Of a stretch of DNA of 64,000 nt, positions 1-7,904 are shown one piece after another. The stretch is from Asanoa hainanensis. GTDB lineage: Bacteria > Actinomycetota > Actinomycetes > Mycobacteriales > Micromonosporaceae. A program made the translations under genes and the position numbers. The first letter of the stretch is position 1, and every line of letters begins with the position of its first letter. The notes beneath the pieces are model-generated. The model was not told the DNA's origin, did no database searches, and worked only from the letters and a program-made list of their open reading frames with translations. The stretch lies in the NCBI RefSeq assembly GCF_900188485.1, contig NZ_FZPH01000003.1:434001-498000 (forward strand), read 5' to 3'.

Positions 1-110
1 CGCGGGCACGATCGCCGCCGTCACCCGCCGCAACGCCCGGGCCCGACGATGGTGACAAGGCGCGCGGGCGGGCACGAACGGACGTCCCCGACATGCACAA
101 TGGAGCGATC

Positions 111-830
111 ATGCCGACCGACGTGCATTTTCTGGTGGCCGACGACGATCCGTATGCGGTCGTCCAGCTCCAGGGCGTGCTCGACCAGCGGTCGGCCGAG
201 GCGTTGCGGGGTGCCCTGCTGTCCGTCGTCGCCGACCGCACGCCGGCGGTGATCGAGGTGACCGGCCTGCGGATCGACGACCCGACCGTGCTGTCGACCT
301 TCGGCGAAGTGGCCCGGGAGACGGCCGACTGGCCCGCCGGCCAACCGGTGATCAGCGTGCCGCCGGCGGTCGCCGACCCGTGGCGGGGCGTGGGCTTCCG
401 GCTGGCCGACGGCGACCGGCGCGCGGCCGGCTTCTCCACGGAGACCTTGCTCCGCGCCGGCCTCGACCCGGTGCCGGGCGCCGCCCGACGCGCCCGCGAG
501 CTGGTCACGGAGGCGTGCGCCCGCTGGGAGCTACCGGAGGTCGCCGGGCCGGCCTGCATCGTCGTCACGGAGCTCGTCAACAACGTGGTCGCACATGCCC
601 AGACCGCGATGACGGTCCTGGTCGGCCGCGGCACGGACGGCGACACCCTGCACCTGTCGGTCCGCGACTGGTCGCCGGCCCTACCGGTCTACGGCGGCCC
701 GGTCCCGACCACCGCCTACGGCGGCCGAGGCCTCCTGCTGATCGAAGCGGTAGCCCTACGCTGGGGCGTCAGCGACCTACCCGACGGCAAGGTCGTCTGG
801 TCAGTCGTCGCCCCCGACGACGACGAATGA
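111..830 (+). CDS. STAS-HATPase fusion protein (anti-sigma/anti-anti-sigma type)
   Basis: Residues about 1-90 look like a STAS domain and residues about 115-239 are an RsbW-type HATPase_c fold: an N-box with ELVNNVVAHA, followed by a glycine-rich GGRGLLL lid. Proteins of this kind act in partner-switching control of sigma factors in the cytoplasm. The STAS half has DPT where RsbV proteins have the phosphorylatable DSxG, so it may not be a normal phosphorylation target. I chose the ATG at 111 because GGAG lies five bases upstream; an ATG at 93 would add six residues. It faces the SigB-STAS gene tail to tail with a gap of six bases, which suggests it acts on that sigma factor. The fold assignment is firm; the partner is inferred. 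Confidence 0.8.
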   Translation: MPTDVHFLVADDDPYAVVQLQGVLDQRSAEALRGALLSVVADRTPAVIEVTGLRIDDPTVLSTFGEVARETADWPAGQPVISVPPAVADPWRGVGFRLADGDRRAAGFSTETLLRAGLDPVPGAARRARELVTEACARWELPEVAGPACIVVTELVNNVVAHAQTAMTVLVGRGTDGDTLHLSVRDWSPALPVYGGPVPTTAYGGRGLLLIEAVALRWGVSDLPDGKVVWSVVAPDDDE

Positions 831-836
831 AGCGCC

Positions 837-1985
837 TCAGTCGTGCGGGGCGGCCATGATCGGGGTTAGGCCGGCTACGCGTAGCGTGCGGCGCACGTAG
901 ACCTGCATGTCGCCGATGCGCAGCCGGACGCCGGCCGCGCGGGCCGCTTCCAGACCCGCCAGCAGGGCCGAGACCCCGGCCGCGTCGATGATCGGCACGC
1001 CGGCCAGGCTGACCGCGACCTCGCGTGGCCGCGGGCGGTCCGCCACCAGGTCGACGGCTTCCAGCAACGCCGCGCGCAGTGGGTCGGCGGTGTCTCGGTC
1101 GACCTCGCCGGTCACGTCCAGGCGGACCAGGCCGCCCTTGTCGCGCCGGGTGACCGTGATCTCGTGGTGGTCGCCCGGGCCCATGCCGGCCTGCCACTGC
1201 TTGGGTGCGTCGCTGAGCATCGCCTCGCGCAGCCAGGTGAGAGCGCGCGACAGCAGGCGCGACACGTGCATCTGGGAGATGCCGAGCTCGGTCGCGATCT
1301 CCGTCTGCGTCTTGTTGCCGTAGAAGCGCAGCGCCAGGATCCGCCGCTCGCGTTCCGGTAGCCGGCACAGCAGGCTCGCGACCGTCAGCCGGTCGTCGAC
1401 CGCCTCCAGGCCCACGTCGGCGCCGCCGATCAGGTCGCCCAGCTCCGCCTCGCTCTCGGCTCTGGCCGGCATGTTCAACGACAGCGGCGTGTACGCGGCC
1501 GCCGTCTCCAGCGCCGCCAGCACATCTTCCTCGTCGACCCGCAGGCGCTCGGCCAGTTCGGGGACCGTCGGCGAGCGGCGCAGCTTGGCGGTCATCTCGG
1601 TGGACGCCCGGTTGACCTCGATGCTGAGCTCCTGCATCCGCCGCGGGACGTGGACGCCCCAGGTGCGGTCGCGGAAATGCCGGCGAAGCTCGCCGATGAT
1701 GGTCGCCGCGGCGAAACCCGTGAATGCCCCACGTTCAGGGTCGAAGCGGTCGACTGCCTTCAGCAGCCCCAACCGCGCCACCTGTTCCAGGTCGTCCATC
1801 GGTTCACCGCGGCCCCGGTAGCGCCGCGCCAGGCGGCCGGCGAACGGCATCGCGGAACGGACCAGCCGTTCCCGTGCCTCCCGCCGCGCATCATCTCCCG
1901 AACGGTGGGCATAAGACATTGCGACCGCGTCGAGAGCCGGCAGGTCCAGTTCACCAGAAGCGGGCATGCCGCTTTGGAGGGTCAT
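837..1985 (-). CDS. SigB/SigF-family RNA polymerase sigma factor with C-terminal STAS domain
   Basis: A 382-residue protein. Region 2 is at about 40-115 (core-binding DLEQVARLGLLKAVDRFDP), region 3 at about 118-190 and region 4 at about 210-262, with the helix-turn-helix TQTEIATELGISQMHVSRLL. The extra C-terminal part, about 275-375, is a STAS domain, which sigma factors normally lack. Where RsbV proteins carry DSxG, this domain has DAAG, so the usual phosphoserine is absent. The start at 1985 follows GAGGAGG with a seven-base gap. Neighbouring anti-sigma ATPases, STAS proteins and a PP2C phosphatase fit control by partner switching. The sigma family and fusion are clear; the effect of the fused STAS domain is inference. 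Confidence 0.9.
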   Translation of the reverse strand: MTLQSGMPASGELDLPALDAVAMSYAHRSGDDARREARERLVRSAMPFAGRLARRYRGRGEPMDDLEQVARLGLLKAVDRFDPERGAFTGFAAATIIGELRRHFRDRTWGVHVPRRMQELSIEVNRASTEMTAKLRRSPTVPELAERLRVDEEDVLAALETAAAYTPLSLNMPARAESEAELGDLIGGADVGLEAVDDRLTVASLLCRLPERERRILALRFYGNKTQTEIATELGISQMHVSRLLSRALTWLREAMLSDAPKQWQAGMGPGDHHEITVTRRDKGGLVRLDVTGEVDRDTADPLRAALLEAVDLVADRPRPREVAVSLAGVPIIDAAGVSALLAGLEAARAAGVRLRIGDMQVYVRRTLRVAGLTPIMAAPHD

Positions 1986-3489: not shown

Positions 3490-4619
3490 ACGGACACCTT
3501 AGGAACCACCATCTCGATTTCGGTGCCCTGCCCCGGAGCCGAGTGGATCCGCACGGTCCCGCCGAGGTCGGTGATCCGGCCGCGGATCGCCTGCGCGACA
3601 CCGAGCCGGCCCTCCCGCTCCGCGGCCGCGAGCCGGCCAGGCTCGATCCCGGTGCCGTCGTCGCGCACGGTCACCGTCACGGCGTCCGGCTCGTCCTCGA
3701 CGAGCACGAAGACGCCGGCGTCCGGGCCCGCGTGCCGGGCGGCGTTGTCGAGCGCCGCGCCGACGGCGGCTGCGATCTGCGCCGCGACCGCCGAGGGCAG
3801 CGGCACGGCCGTCGCGGGTGTGGCCACCGAGACCAGGTCGCTGGCGTACGCGGTGACGAGCGCGCCCAGGTCGACGGCGCCGCTGGCGGACGGTGGCGGC
3901 GCACCGGTCGCGATCAGCCGGCGCAGCGCGGCCTCCTGCTCCCCCGCCAGCCGGGCCAGCTCGCGGGCTTCACCGTCGAGGCTGGCACCGCGCCGACGGA
4001 CCAGCGCGAGCACCTGGAGCACGGAGTCGTGGATGTCCCGGGCCAACCGCTCCCGCTCGCGGGTGGCCGCCTCGAGCTCCACCGCCCGCTGCAACCGTGC
4101 CTCGGCGATCGCGGCCAGCCGGGTGACGTGCCCGACCCCGAGGGCGGCCAGCAGCATCAGGCTGGTGCCGGTCAACGACGCCTGGTTGAGCTGCGGTCGG
4201 ATCACCAGGTCGGCCGCGCCGAGCAGCAGCGCGGCCACCACGCCAAGCCGCCGGCCGCCGGCGACCGCCCACGCCAGCACCGGCGCGGCCAGCCAGGCGA
4301 CGGCCAGACCCGGGGTGCCGTTGCCGAGCGCGTCCCGGCCGATCACCAGGTCCGCGGAGAGCACCACCGCGGCGGTCACCACGAGGTCGGCGTTCAGCAG
4401 CCCCCAGCGGCGCCGCTCGGGCCGGGCGAACAACCAGCTCGCGGCGATCGTCCAGCCGATCATCACGACGGCGACCGGGATCACCGCCAGCGGGTGCGCG
4501 TAGTCGCGGACGTTGCCGGCGATCAGCGCCAGCGCCCAGGCCAACGAGGCGAACCGGAAGACCACGATCGCCCGCCACAGCGGCGTCTGCAGCCCACCGG
4601 CGCTGGCCGGCGCCGTCAC
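3486..4619 (-). CDS. Membrane sensor histidine kinase, NarX/DesK-like (MacS type)
   Basis: A 377-residue protein with five or six hydrophobic helices in the first 165 residues and no large external domain, followed by a HisKA_3 dimerisation helix with His197 in RDIHDSVLQ and a HATPase_c domain (ALDNAARHAG N-box, DDGTGIEPG). It should autophosphorylate and pass phosphate to Asp56 of the regulator encoded just downstream. The arrangement resembles actinobacterial MacS kinases. It starts with GTG inside the TGA of the phosphatase gene and ends inside the regulator start. The signal is unknown; the short loops suggest sensing within or near the membrane. Confidence 0.9.
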   Translation of the reverse strand: MTAPASAGGLQTPLWRAIVVFRFASLAWALALIAGNVRDYAHPLAVIPVAVVMIGWTIAASWLFARPERRRWGLLNADLVVTAAVVLSADLVIGRDALGNGTPGLAVAWLAAPVLAWAVAGGRRLGVVAALLLGAADLVIRPQLNQASLTGTSLMLLAALGVGHVTRLAAIAEARLQRAVELEAATRERERLARDIHDSVLQVLALVRRRGASLDGEARELARLAGEQEAALRRLIATGAPPPSASGAVDLGALVTAYASDLVSVATPATAVPLPSAVAAQIAAAVGAALDNAARHAGPDAGVFVLVEDEPDAVTVTVRDDGTGIEPGRLAAAEREGRLGVAQAIRGRITDLGGTVRIHSAPGQGTEIEMVVPKVSV

Positions 4620-6859
4620 GCGGGTCGCAGCCGGAGCGCGACGACGCAGGTGTCGTCACCGGGGTTGGCCGGCTGGAGCCGGCCGATCAGCTCGTCGACC
4701 GGCAGATGGCCGGTGCCGGTCACGCCGCGCAGCAGCGGGCCCAGCCAGTCGCTGTCGTAGCCGTCCCGGCGCTCGATCAGGCCGTCGGTGTAGAGCAGCA
4801 CCGTGTCCCCTTCGGCCAGCGTCGTCGTGACGGTCTCGTACCTGCTGTCGGGTCGGGCCCCGACGATCATCCCAGGTGGCCGGGTGAGCGCCGCGGCGCT
4901 GCCGTCGCCCGAGACCAGGATCGGCGGCGGGTGGCCGGCCTGGGCCCAGGTGAGCTCCCGGGTCTGCGGATCGAAGTGTGCCACCACGACGGTCGCCGTG
5001 GGTTCACTGGCGTCGTCGTGCACGATCCGGTTGAGGTACGCCAGCAGCTCACCGGGCTCCGTGCTGGTCACGGCCAGCGCGGCGACCGAGTGGCGCAGCC
5101 GGGCCATCGTGGCCGCGGCGGCGATGCCGTGCCCGGCGACGTCGCCAACCGCGAGCAGGCTGCGGCCGTCGGGCAGCTCGACCACGTCGTACCAGTCGCC
5201 GCCGACCCGGCTGACCACCTCGGCCGGCAGGTAGCGGACGGCGACGTCCAGGCCCGGCAGGTGCAGCACGCCGGTCGGGATCGGCAGGATGATCTGCTGC
5301 AACGCGACGACCAGCCGGTGCTCGGTCTGCTGGCTGCGCAGCCGCTCGGCGAGCTCGGCCTCCACGTCGACCAGCCGGGCCCGGTCGCGGGCGGCGGCCT
5401 CGTTCGCCGTCACGTCCTGCACGATGCCGTAGACCTTGAGCACCCGGCCCGTCCGGTCGCGGATGGTCTCGAACCGGGCGCGCAGGTAGCGGACCTCGCC
5501 GCGGACCAGGATGCGGTAGTTCAGGTCGGCCGACTGGCCGTGCTCGAAGACCCGGGCGAGCTGCGGCGCGATCCGTGGCGCGTCCTGCGGGTGCAGCTCG
5601 CCGGCCGCCTCCTCCAGGCTCGGCGGGCCGCTCTCGGGGTCGTGGCGGAAGATCGAGTAGAGGCCTTCGGACCAGTAGACGCTGCCCGTGCCCAGGTCCC
5701 ACTCGCCGTAGCCGAGCCGGCCGAGCCGTTCGGTCTGCGCGATCCGGGCGGCCAGCCGGCGCTCCTCGTCGAGCCGGGTCCAGGTGAGCAGCACGCCGCC
5801 ACCGAACCGGGAGATCCGCACGGTGAACACCGCGGTCTCGACACCCGCGGTCTGCGGGGTGTACGTGAACGGACCGATCTCGCGCGGCCGGCCGGAGTCG
5901 AGCACCTGGGCCAGCGAGTGCCACAGCTCGGTGCCGACGATGCTCGGGTAGCGGGTGGCCGTGCTGCTGCCGACCAGCTCCCGCCCGCGCAGCCCGGTCA
6001 CGTCGGTGGCCTCCGGGCTGGCCGCGACCAGCACCCAGTCGACGATCTCGCCAGCCGCGTCGCGGATCGGCACGGAGACACCGACCGCACCGGGCAGCGC
6101 GTCGAGCATCGACTGCGCGTCGGTGATCCAGCCGGCCTGGTGCGGGTGGGCCCGCAGCCGCCTGGCGATCTCGCCGGTGACCTCGCCCACCACCGTGCTC
6201 ACCGTGTCGCGGACGGCGGCCGGGAACGTCTGCTGCTTGACGAAGAACGCGACGACGACGGCGACGGCGCCCGTCTCGCCGACCGGCACCACCGCCCGCG
6301 ACGGCCACTCCGCACCTGGCCCGCCGACCAGCAGGTAGTGCGGCGGCGTCGCGGTGCGATCGGGCAGGAAGAGCGGTTCCCCCGTACGCGCGACGTAGCC
6401 GGCCTCGGTCGGCGGGTGCGCCGGCACCCGGCTCCAGGCGTCGACCACCGCCGGCGGCACCCCGGCCGCGCCCACGAGCTGCAGGGAGGAGTCCGGCTCG
6501 ACCGCGTACACGGCGACCGCGTCGGCGCCCACGTCGTGCGCCAGCCGCCGCTGGAGCGTGCCGGCGAGATCGGCCAGGGGTTCCTGGCCCGGCGCGGCCA
6601 GCGCCCGGGCGGCCATCGCGGCCGCGTCGGCGGCAGCGGCGCTGGCCATCCGGCGCACCTCCTCGAAGGGCGCCGGCGAGCTGGGGCGCGCACTGTCGAG
6701 GATCGCCGAGGCGGCCTCGGCCACGGGCACGCCGGAGCGGTCGGCGAGCCCCTGCAACCGTTCTCTCGCCTCTCCCGGTGAGCACTCCAGTCGCTCCGCC
6801 AACACCGCCACGGCGGCGTCGATCAAGGCGGCCAGCGGGCCGTCCGCTCCGGGGGCCAT
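4616..6859 (-). CDS. ANTAR-GAF-PAS-PP2C (SpoIIE-type) protein phosphatase
   Basis: About 747 residues. An ANTAR-like three-helix domain comes first (about 5-65), then a GAF domain (about 80-250), one or two PAS segments (about 270-510) and a PP2C/SpoIIE phosphatase (about 550-745) with the metal-binding GGDWYDV and GDVAGHG motifs. SpoIIE-type enzymes dephosphorylate RsbV-like STAS proteins and so release sigma factors. I prefer the ATG at 6859, just before the ANTAR domain; a start at 7024 would run through the divergent promoter region. It leads an operon with the kinase and regulator. ANTAR domains usually bind RNA, so its presence on a phosphatase is a point of interest. Confidence 0.88.
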   Translation of the reverse strand: MAPGADGPLAALIDAAVAVLAERLECSPGEARERLQGLADRSGVPVAEAASAILDSARPSSPAPFEEVRRMASAAAADAAAMAARALAAPGQEPLADLAGTLQRRLAHDVGADAVAVYAVEPDSSLQLVGAAGVPPAVVDAWSRVPAHPPTEAGYVARTGEPLFLPDRTATPPHYLLVGGPGAEWPSRAVVPVGETGAVAVVVAFFVKQQTFPAAVRDTVSTVVGEVTGEIARRLRAHPHQAGWITDAQSMLDALPGAVGVSVPIRDAAGEIVDWVLVAASPEATDVTGLRGRELVGSSTATRYPSIVGTELWHSLAQVLDSGRPREIGPFTYTPQTAGVETAVFTVRISRFGGGVLLTWTRLDEERRLAARIAQTERLGRLGYGEWDLGTGSVYWSEGLYSIFRHDPESGPPSLEEAAGELHPQDAPRIAPQLARVFEHGQSADLNYRILVRGEVRYLRARFETIRDRTGRVLKVYGIVQDVTANEAAARDRARLVDVEAELAERLRSQQTEHRLVVALQQIILPIPTGVLHLPGLDVAVRYLPAEVVSRVGGDWYDVVELPDGRSLLAVGDVAGHGIAAAATMARLRHSVAALAVTSTEPGELLAYLNRIVHDDASEPTATVVVAHFDPQTRELTWAQAGHPPPILVSGDGSAAALTRPPGMIVGARPDSRYETVTTTLAEGDTVLLYTDGLIERRDGYDSDWLGPLLRGVTGTGHLPVDELIGRLQPANPGDDTCVVALRLRPA

Positions 6860-6961
6860 CCGGTTGTCCGGCACGCTCCGACGATCCCACAGTCCCGGCG
6901 CCCGTGGCGCGGCCTTGCGACGCGCGCCACCAGGGGCGGGGCAGGGTTGTCGGTCGGATGC

Positions 6962-7003
6962 GGTACTGGCCGGCAGGACGTAGTGTGATTGGGGGCCAGT
7001 ACC
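6962..7003. promoter_or_regulatory. Inverted repeat in the divergent signalling promoter
   Basis: GGTACTGGCC at 6962-6971 and its exact complement GGCCAGTACC at 6994-7003 lie 22 bases apart. They sit between the divergent starts of the PP2C phosphatase (6859) and the free anti-sigma ATPase (7039). TAGTGT at 6981-6986, between the arms, could be a -10 element for the rightward gene. The layout fits a dimeric repressor or a looping site; the binding protein is unknown. Confidence 0.45.
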
Positions 7004-7038
7004 ACGCTGAGCGCCCGCTAGCACCTCCGAGGCGGCAC

Positions 7039-7524
7039 ATGACCGACGACGGGCACCATCGACCGGACGCGGTTGTGCCCGCTGCCGGGCAACAGTTGCT
7101 CGCCGAGACGTTCGCCCGGGGCCAGGTGACCGACCTGCGACACGCCTTCGCCGCCTGCGCCGAAGCGGCCGGCCTGCGCGACCAGCGGCTCGACGACTTC
7201 GTCCTCGCCGTCAACGAGTTGATCACCAACGCGGTGCGGCACGGTGGTGGCGCGGGCGAGCTGCGGCTCTGGCGCTCCGACGGCACGCTGGTCTGCGAGG
7301 TCTCCGACGGCGGCGGCGGCATCGGCGCGGAGCGGCTGGCCAACCAGGAACGTCCCGCTCCCGACGTGGCCGGCGGCTGGGGGTTGTGGCTCGCCGGCCA
7401 ACTCAGCGACAGCATGCGGGTGGCGACCGGCCCGGCCGGCACCACCGTGCGGATCAGCACCGGGCTGGGCGGCGTGGACGGCCGGTTCGCCGCCGGAGCC
7501 GGGGCCGGGGAGCGGGTGGAGTGA
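7039..7524 (+). CDS. Anti-sigma factor serine kinase, RsbW-like HATPase
   Basis: A 161-residue single-domain GHKL ATPase with an N-box (FVLAVNELITNAVRHG), a G1 box around VSDGGGGI and a G2 lid GGWGLWLAGQL. Such proteins bind and inhibit a SigB/SigF-type factor and phosphorylate the paired STAS antagonist. The ATG at 7039 follows GAGGCGG; upstream in-frame codons run into the divergent control region. Its last codons overlap the GTG of the following STAS gene (GTGA), the usual RsbW-RsbV coupling although here the kinase comes first. Confidence 0.87.
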   Translation: MTDDGHHRPDAVVPAAGQQLLAETFARGQVTDLRHAFAACAEAAGLRDQRLDDFVLAVNELITNAVRHGGGAGELRLWRSDGTLVCEVSDGGGGIGAERLANQERPAPDVAGGWGLWLAGQLSDSMRVATGPAGTTVRISTGLGGVDGRFAAGAGAGERVE

Positions 7525-7904
7525 ACACCGACCCGGCCGCACCGAGGCAGGCCACGGGCGGCCCCCGGATCGAGGAGACCGAGCTGGTCGCCCCGCTGGT
7601 GGTGACCGCCGAGCCGGCCGGCGAGCTGGTGCGCCTGCGGCTGGCCGGCGAGCTCGACATGTCGACGGCGCCCGACCTGCTGAGCCGGATCACCGCGCTG
7701 GCGGCCGGCGGCACACCCCGGCTGGTGGTCGACCTCGCGGCGCTGACCTTCTGCGACTCGGCGGGGTTGACCACGTTCGTGCGCGGCGACCGGCGGTGTG
7801 CCGAGGTCGGCGGTTGGCTGCGGCTGACCGGCGCGTACGGGCACGTGGCCCGGGTGATCGAGATCAGCGGGGTGGCGGACTCCCTGGGCTATCGCCCGTC
7901 TTGA
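7521..7904 (+). CDS. STAS-domain anti-sigma factor antagonist, RsbV-like
   Basis: A 127-residue protein with a STAS fold after an N-terminal tail of about 25 residues. LTFCDSAGLTTF carries the intact DSxG site, so the Ser is a likely target of the neighbouring kinase and of the PP2C phosphatase upstream. It starts with GTG in a four-base overlap with the kinase gene. Its 3' end overlaps the convergent SsgA-like gene by 16 bases. Of the three STAS domains in this cluster it is the only one with a clear phosphorylatable Ser, so it may be the regulated switch. That role is inference. Confidence 0.87.
   Translation: MNTDPAAPRQATGGPRIEETELVAPLVVTAEPAGELVRLRLAGELDMSTAPDLLSRITALAAGGTPRLVVDLAALTFCDSAGLTTFVRGDRRCAEVGGWLRLTGAYGHVARVIEISGVADSLGYRPS

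Follow-up and report, generated by a model that had tools for sequence, protein, structure and literature searches.

A SigB/SigF-type sigma factor of Asanoa hainanensis with a STAS tail that lacks the classical phosphoserine, and its SipA-like neighbour

In classical partner switching, unphosphorylated RsbV takes RsbW away from the sigma factor, and phosphorylation of RsbV returns RsbW. What can an RsbV-like STAS domain do when it is part of the sigma factor itself and has an alanine in place of the serine that is normally phosphorylated? This question is raised by a gene close to the start of the window, by which we mean the whole stretch of 64,000 nucleotides of Asanoa hainanensis that was analysed (contig NZ_FZPH01000003.1, positions 434,001 to 498,000; the genome measures 8.6 Mb in 44 contigs). 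We consider, with moderate confidence, that the C-terminal STAS domain works without phosphorylation, as a dock in cis that receives the RsbW-like domain of the SipA-family protein encoded next to it (93-830), and that docking keeps the sigma factor off. The fusion and the contact between such a tail and an ATPase domain were already published in 2023 for sigma-SsdA and SipA of Actinoplanes missouriensis (Tezuka et al. 2023, PMC10733313), and the pair in the window is a member of that kind.

The sigma-STAS fusion and its missing serine

The plus strand of 837-1985 is interrupted by stops, and a single open reading frame of 382 amino acids (aa) runs on the minus strand. The initial annotation had described a SigB/SigF-type sigma factor fused to a C-terminal STAS domain here, and this description and its coordinates were borne out on that strand. 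Pfam places Sigma70_r2 at residues 41-109 (E 1.4e-16), r3 at 120-186 (3.1e-16) and r4 at 206-254 (1.1e-16), and the NCBIfam model of the SigB/SigF/SigG subfamily matches at E 6e-79, exceeding its own cut-off. The STAS domain that had been predicted beyond residue 270 is present: STAS_2 matches residues 289-373 (E 3.4e-13, 50 bits, cut-off 29.2) and STAS matches 283-377 (E 5.7e-9, 36.1 bits, cut-off 22.6). The AlphaFold model, based on 30 sequences, has a mean predicted local distance difference test score of 74.9 and a predicted template modelling score of 0.38. At 277-370 its strands and helices follow one another much as in a STAS domain, preceded by a poorly predicted link at 267-273, and A335 opens a helix at 335-351. 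All 50 top rows of a fold search with this model are sigma factors, which do not probe the tail. A role in defence was rejected, as the sole PADLOC match, MzaA, came via the sigma regions.

A family search in 150 genomes found matches at E <= 1e-75 in 71 of them, 90 in total. Of these matches, 88 extend to residue 364 or further and two end near 270. The genomes with matches include six Asanoa members, the genome studied here among them, and the nearest named relatives among the best 80 of 481 loci are those of Asanoa ishikariensis (97% along the full protein) and Asanoa iriomotensis (92%), both Micromonosporaceae. An assembly or frameshift artefact is ruled out by the single open frame and by the presence of the fusion in six members of the genus. 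The fusion of a SigB/F/G-type sigma factor to a C-terminal STAS domain is real and not due to chance.

The published account names Actinoplanes, Pseudosporangium, Couchioplanes, Micromonospora and one Nonomuraea strain as carriers (PMC10733313). Beyond these, we found tailed relatives in Asanoa, Plantactinospora, Nucisporomicrobium, Paractinoplanes, Pilimelia and Amorphoplanes. Matches extending to residue 370 were found in two of 396 genomes of the phylum and close tails in three of 394 genomes of the class, all of them Micromonosporaceae. In a sample of 249 genomes of the order, the matches beyond residue 350 were likewise all from this family, among the matches listed. The searches outside the family were strict (thresholds 1e-65, 1e-14 and 1e-62), so that distant fusions could escape them. 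Several genomes of the family (G018, G101, G136 and others) carry two to four sigma-STAS paralogues each, and some of these are immediately preceded by a SipA-like gene in the same orientation.

The DSxG site had been reported to read DAAG, and this is correct for residues 334-337. To see how general this is, one sigma protein per locus was taken from 205 loci, which gave 169 distinct proteins, 130 of them with a tail. At the position of the phosphoserine, these 130 tails, which are related by descent and do not represent 130 independent events, have Ala in 118, Gly in seven, Pro in two, and His, Met and Val in one each; none has Ser. Asp334 is kept in 124 and Gly337 in 119 of the 130, and the neighbouring position 336 is Thr in two and Ser in one. 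The alanine is therefore not a quirk of a single strain. An alanine here is also not unusual by itself: this genome has 20 STAS_2 matches, which served as a control, and 13 of them have Ser at the site and seven another residue, the sigma tail and the 93-830 protein being two of these seven. As a single observation the alanine is therefore weak, and it is the pattern across the family that carries weight. A decaying site would be expected to drift, yet this position is held as Ala. These alignments support the view that the classical position of the tail cannot accept a phosphate, and as Ser is absent throughout the family, release would not occur by phosphorylation there.

In the alignment with the SpoIIAA chain of PDB 1tid, which reads D-A-S-G, A335 falls on the residue that follows Asp. 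We take this chain to be the S58A mutant, Ser58 being the phosphosite. The tail thus resembles RsbV and SpoIIAA (PDB 1tid, 1til) as a STAS domain that would bind an RsbW-like ATPase and that has Ala at the phosphoserine, as in the presumed mutant. It differs from a free-standing RsbV or SpoIIAA in that its DSxG motif has no phosphorylatable Ser, the alanine is natural in the whole family, and the domain is fused to the very sigma factor that it would otherwise free. A further protein with joined domains, Rv1364c of Mycobacterium tuberculosis (PDB 3ke6), combines RsbU and RsbW domains according to its title, but is not a sigma factor.

The SipA-like neighbour and the published pair

The gene at 93-830 is convergent with the sigma-STAS gene and lies 6 bp from it. 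In its product, Pfam finds HATPase_c_2 (E 2.7e-9) and, below the cut-off of 29.2, STAS_2 (1.3e-4, 22.5 bits). The fold matches of its model are RsbW/SpoIIAB and STAS proteins, so that the N-terminal STAS domain is weak by Pfam but clear in structure, and the ATPase part has the GHKL-type fold. Among 112 aligned SipA-like proteins, the N box of the ATPase part is kept (Glu160, Asn164 and His168 in 112, 111 and 111), as are Asp192 of the G1 box (112) and the glycines of the G2 box (110 and 111), and the first Gly of the DxGxG motif in the G1 box is Ser in 97 and Gly in three. Judged by these motifs, SipA may still bind nucleotide and act as a kinase on some other STAS protein. Its own STAS domain also lacks the serine, with Pro in 68, Arg in 30, Asp in five, Gln in four, His in two, Glu in two, Ala in one and Ser in none of the 112 at the matching position. 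The classical acceptor is thus missing from both STAS domains known to be bound by SipA, the tail and its own.

The pairing of the two genes recurs across the family. A SipA-like gene is listed within 6 kb of at least 56 of the 90 sigma-STAS matches, and in at least 45 of those 56 cases it is downstream and convergent. Conversely, a sigma-STAS gene is nearby for 70 of the 151 SipA-like genes listed, which is a lower bound. Flanks of 1.5 to 6 kb around the genes of the 130 distinct tailed proteins contain a SipA-like gene in 90 cases, in 84 of them on the opposite strand.

In A. missouriensis, sigma-SsdA (AMIS_54240) has a sigma-B/F/G part at 37-260 and a STAS domain at 282-377, and SipA (AMIS_54230) has a STAS domain at 6-103 and an RsbW-like domain at 158-239 (PMC10733313). 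The two pairs share the order of domains in both proteins, the adjoining genes and similar lengths (379 and 243 aa there, 382 and 245 aa here). According to that paper, the ATPase domain of SipA binds both the STAS tail of sigma-SsdA and SipA's own STAS domain in two-hybrid assays. SipA is treated there as an inhibitor, the sipA deletion as a strain with a hyper-active sigma factor (213 genes up compared to the double mutant), and suppressor mutations were located in ssdA. According to the authors, sigma-SsdA is the first case of an antagonist domain in a sigma factor; how it works they leave open. Among the open-licence papers that literature searches listed, such a fusion is described only in this one (PMC10733313). 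Its main text does not appear to discuss the alanine at the phosphosite of the tail ("serine" occurs 0 times and "phosphorylat" four times) or tail-less orthologues.

The partner in the window also differs from SipA in some respects. A tree of SipA-like proteins, in which 107 of 134 rows were kept after removal of those more than 85% identical, shows several lineages. The copy in the window belongs to a lineage of 28 (support 100/100), 22 of which lie far from any sigma-STAS gene; these 22 entered the tree because they match the window's protein best, a choice that skews the picture, and A. missouriensis is absent from the tree. The sigma-adjacent Actinoplanes copies fall in another lineage. 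The surroundings of several far copies are conserved: a DUF5709 gene is present and, in many cases, so are genes for a response regulator and a histidine kinase. In Asanoa, the sigma gene sits within that DUF5709 neighbourhood. Because of its lineage and this placement, the window's partner is SipA-like but perhaps not a direct orthologue of A. missouriensis SipA. At some Actinoplanes-type loci (L106, L111, L124 and others), a single sigma-STAS gene has two SipA-like genes in its vicinity; these belong to separate lineages, and the farther one groups with the Micromonospora copies.

The features of the window that are discussed here are collected in Table 1. Judged by its domains, the region 4616-7904 is a separate, ordinary-looking partner-switching module.

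Table 1. Positions in the window of the sigma-STAS gene, its likely partner and the neighbouring module
Feature	Position	Strand	Basis
Sigma-STAS fusion gene (sigma-SsdA type), 382 aa	837..1985	-	Open reading frame, Pfam, NCBIfam, family search
Sigma regions 2 to 4, residues 41-254	1224..1865	-	Pfam r2, r3, r4; coordinates from residue numbers
STAS domain, residues 289-373	867..1121	-	Pfam STAS_2 E 3.4e-13; AlphaFold model
DAAG, residues 334-337; A335 (981-983) at the classical Ser position	975..986	-	Alignments
SipA-family protein, 245 aa, N-terminal STAS and C-terminal RsbW-like ATPase; likely partner	93..830	+	Pfam, fold matches, family pairing
RsbW-like ATPase part of the SipA-family protein, residues 116-242	438..818	+	
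SpoIIE-type phosphatase with ANTAR, GAF and PAS matches	4616-7024	-	
RsbW-like ATPase	7039-7524		
RsbV-like STAS, GTG start at 7521, DSAG; overlaps the ATPase	7521-7904		

Orthologues without the tail and sigma-B-type promoters

Thirteen distinct orthologues (from Micromonospora, Verrucosispora, Salinispora and one further record) end just after the linker and have no STAS domain. In a tree of the sigma proteins (87 of 150 selected rows kept, after tailed rows more than 97% identical and 19 of 26 sigma-only rows were dropped), they branch within the tailed family beside tailed Micromonospora, as expected for one or two losses. A profile of the 130 tails found nothing in the 900 nucleotides after the stop in all 13 (best 5.3 bits, E 0.095); two tailed controls reached 136.5 and 134.4 bits. 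In the five tail-less loci measured (L126, L127, L129, L131, L138), the next long frame starts 57 to 145 nucleotides past the stop. In six tail-less genomes searched whole, no tail-like STAS domain was found elsewhere (best 2.2e-9, as in tailed genomes), compared to 2.4e-50 and 7.2e-48 for the tails of two tailed control genomes. Gene fission, a recent stop and, for the six genomes searched whole, relocation of the tail were rejected on these grounds. A remnant tail suggested by tblastn in L127 (90 residues, 34%) was not borne out by the profile search. In genome G704, the first match had run past the stop to residue 359, and the sigma factor in fact ends after the linker; one early alignment of 14 proteins excluded the loci whose match ran past a stop.

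A full-length SipA gene lies about 2.2 kb away in eight of the 13 tail-less members. Of the others, L132 has a SipA fragment, and the flanks of the remaining four (L136, L138-L140), which include three Salinispora, contain no SipA. When the six tail-less genomes were searched whole, SipA was present in four and absent from two (G730, G711). Once the tail is gone, SipA can thus also be lost. For the eight tail-less members (28 pairs) and 20 chosen tailed Micromonospora (190 pairs), ratios of nonsynonymous to synonymous substitution rates (dN/dS) were compared as Nei-Gojobori pairwise medians, with no test; L077 and L085 (no full SipA in the flank), L132, L136 and L138-L140 were left out. The median for the ATPase half of SipA is 0.20 in tail-less and 0.29 in tailed members, that for its STAS half 0.59 and 0.42, that for the whole of SipA 0.41 and 0.36, and that for the sigma domain 0.011 and 0.030.

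We also looked before SipA-like genes for a sigma-B-type promoter (G.TT, 13-16 nucleotides, nGGGTA; background 0.033 per stretch of that length). It is present in 66 of 109 upstream regions in the family, compared to five on the reverse strand and a mean of 1.1 in shuffled sequences. These comprise all eight tail-less loci, 37 of the 47 tailed loci where SipA lies beyond 1.5 kb and 21 of the 54 where it is closer. This suggests that a SigB-type sigma factor switches on its own or a sister's anti-sigma gene, as a feedback. The motif cannot tell which sigma factor reads it, because there are several of the SigB type per genome. In contrast to the sigma-SsdA/SipA system, the window's own SipA-like gene has no such promoter in the preceding 300 nucleotides. 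For the sigma-STAS genes, a promoter of this type of their own found no support, with three of 130 upstream regions compared to 14 on the reverse strand. The regulon promoter GnTT-n14-CGGGTA has seven matches in the window at up to one mismatch, compared to 6.06 expected. One motif, at 2211-2234, departs from the published consensus at a single base and stops 10 bases short of the DUF5709 gene at 2245 (region 2211-2844), although the count for the window is not above chance. A like motif stands 11-13 bases before a related DUF5709 gene in seven further loci (L243, L245, L284, L276, L278, L281, L283), and the DUF5709 gene is probably a target of a SigB-type sigma factor.

SipA thus seems to be useful, and wired to a SigB-type sigma factor, even where the tail was lost. 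Since eight of the 13 tail-less members retain a full-length SipA that evolves under purifying selection and is preceded by a sigma-B-type promoter, the protein probably acts on something other than the tail, most obviously the sigma body or, alternatively, another STAS protein.

How the tail may act

The reading that we favour, the tail as a dock, follows from the alanine and the fusion taken together. With Ala at the classical site, phosphorylation there cannot eject the anti-sigma protein, and the RsbV/RsbW cycle cannot be the switch. With the antagonist bolted to the sigma factor and locked, capture brings the anti-sigma protein to the sigma factor and not away from it. The tail would capture the RsbW-like domain of the 93-830 protein in cis, the same contact as in A. 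missouriensis being expected here by analogy. The docked domain would then be held beside the sigma body and act on it, which would keep the sigma factor off. Release would have to come from elsewhere, be it the level of SipA, SipA's own Ser-less STAS domain, or another ligand or modification. The initial annotation had proposed that the sigma factor might either resist inhibition or be tethered by its own antagonist, through binding of the tail to a local anti-sigma ATPase. Such binding was shown by two-hybrid in the published relative, and tethering fits it; resistance to inhibition fits badly, because SipA is treated as an inhibitor and its deletion as a strain with a hyper-active sigma factor (PMC10733313). 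That role of SipA agrees with a dock. More tentatively, the Ala-locked tail may be a handle in cis that loads the RsbW-like domain onto its own sigma factor, while SipA may also control the sigma body handle-free; the latter is suggested by the tail-less Micromonospora orthologues, in which SipA is retained with a sigma-B-type promoter before it and its ATPase half is constrained.

Several points weigh against the tail as a dock. SipA gave no two-hybrid signal with the isolated sigma domain, which leaves direct contact with the sigma body a supposition; AlphaFold-Multimer models place the two STAS partners of SipA on opposite faces of its ATPase domain; the authors speculate on a unique mechanism or a post-translational switch; and the tail change L372P abolished sigma function, so the tail may serve the sigma factor itself (PMC10733313). 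The absent two-hybrid signal would be understandable if the contact with the sigma body were weak and depended on tethering. In our own data, no SipA-like gene is listed within 6 kb for 34 of the 90 sigma genes. The window's SipA-like protein belongs to another lineage than the sigma-adjacent Actinoplanes copies, so the published result may not carry over, and the kept N box leaves room for kinase action on another site or protein.

Other explanations deserve to be weighed against the same results. SipA might inhibit only by covering a tail that the sigma factor needs for folding or for contact with RNA polymerase, with the sigma body untouched. The two-hybrid contact with the tail only and the loss of function in L372P speak for it, and the opposite-face model leaves room for such masking (PMC10733313). 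We place it on the unlikely side, as the strongly constrained sigma domain of the tail-less orthologues (median dN/dS 0.011) indicates that a sigma factor of this family works, or at any rate persists, without the tail, and as eight of those 13 orthologues keep a full-length SipA. It is improbable that the tail, being always unphosphorylated, engages the anti-sigma protein and thereby leaves its own sigma factor free and active. This would be the classical logic, by which unphosphorylated RsbV or SpoIIAA frees the sigma factor, and the tail does resemble the presumably non-phosphorylatable SpoIIAA chain of PDB 1tid. Against it, A. missouriensis SipA behaves as an inhibitor despite binding the tail, its deletion is treated as a case of hyper-active sigma factor, and the suppressors lie in ssdA (PMC10733313).

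The initial annotation had also named the ATPase at 7039 as a possible partner, which would tie the sigma factor into the adjacent SpoIIE/RsbV-like module. This ATPase has a clear RsbA-type anti-sigma domain (E 8.3e-37, under the family cut-off) and lies about 5 kb off, near a SpoIIE-type phosphatase. We nevertheless regard it as a highly improbable partner, because it overlaps its own phosphorylatable RsbV-like gene, with an intact DSAG, and stands beside that phosphatase. SipA-like genes, moreover, adjoin sigma-STAS genes across the family, a count that was not made for this ATPase.

The missing Ser and the tail-less orthologues bear on what the 2023 paper left open, namely how SipA inhibits by holding a STAS domain and how it lets go (PMC10733313). 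The natural tail-less orthologues with an intact SipA would allow a direct test of whether the tail is the dock or the point of inhibition.
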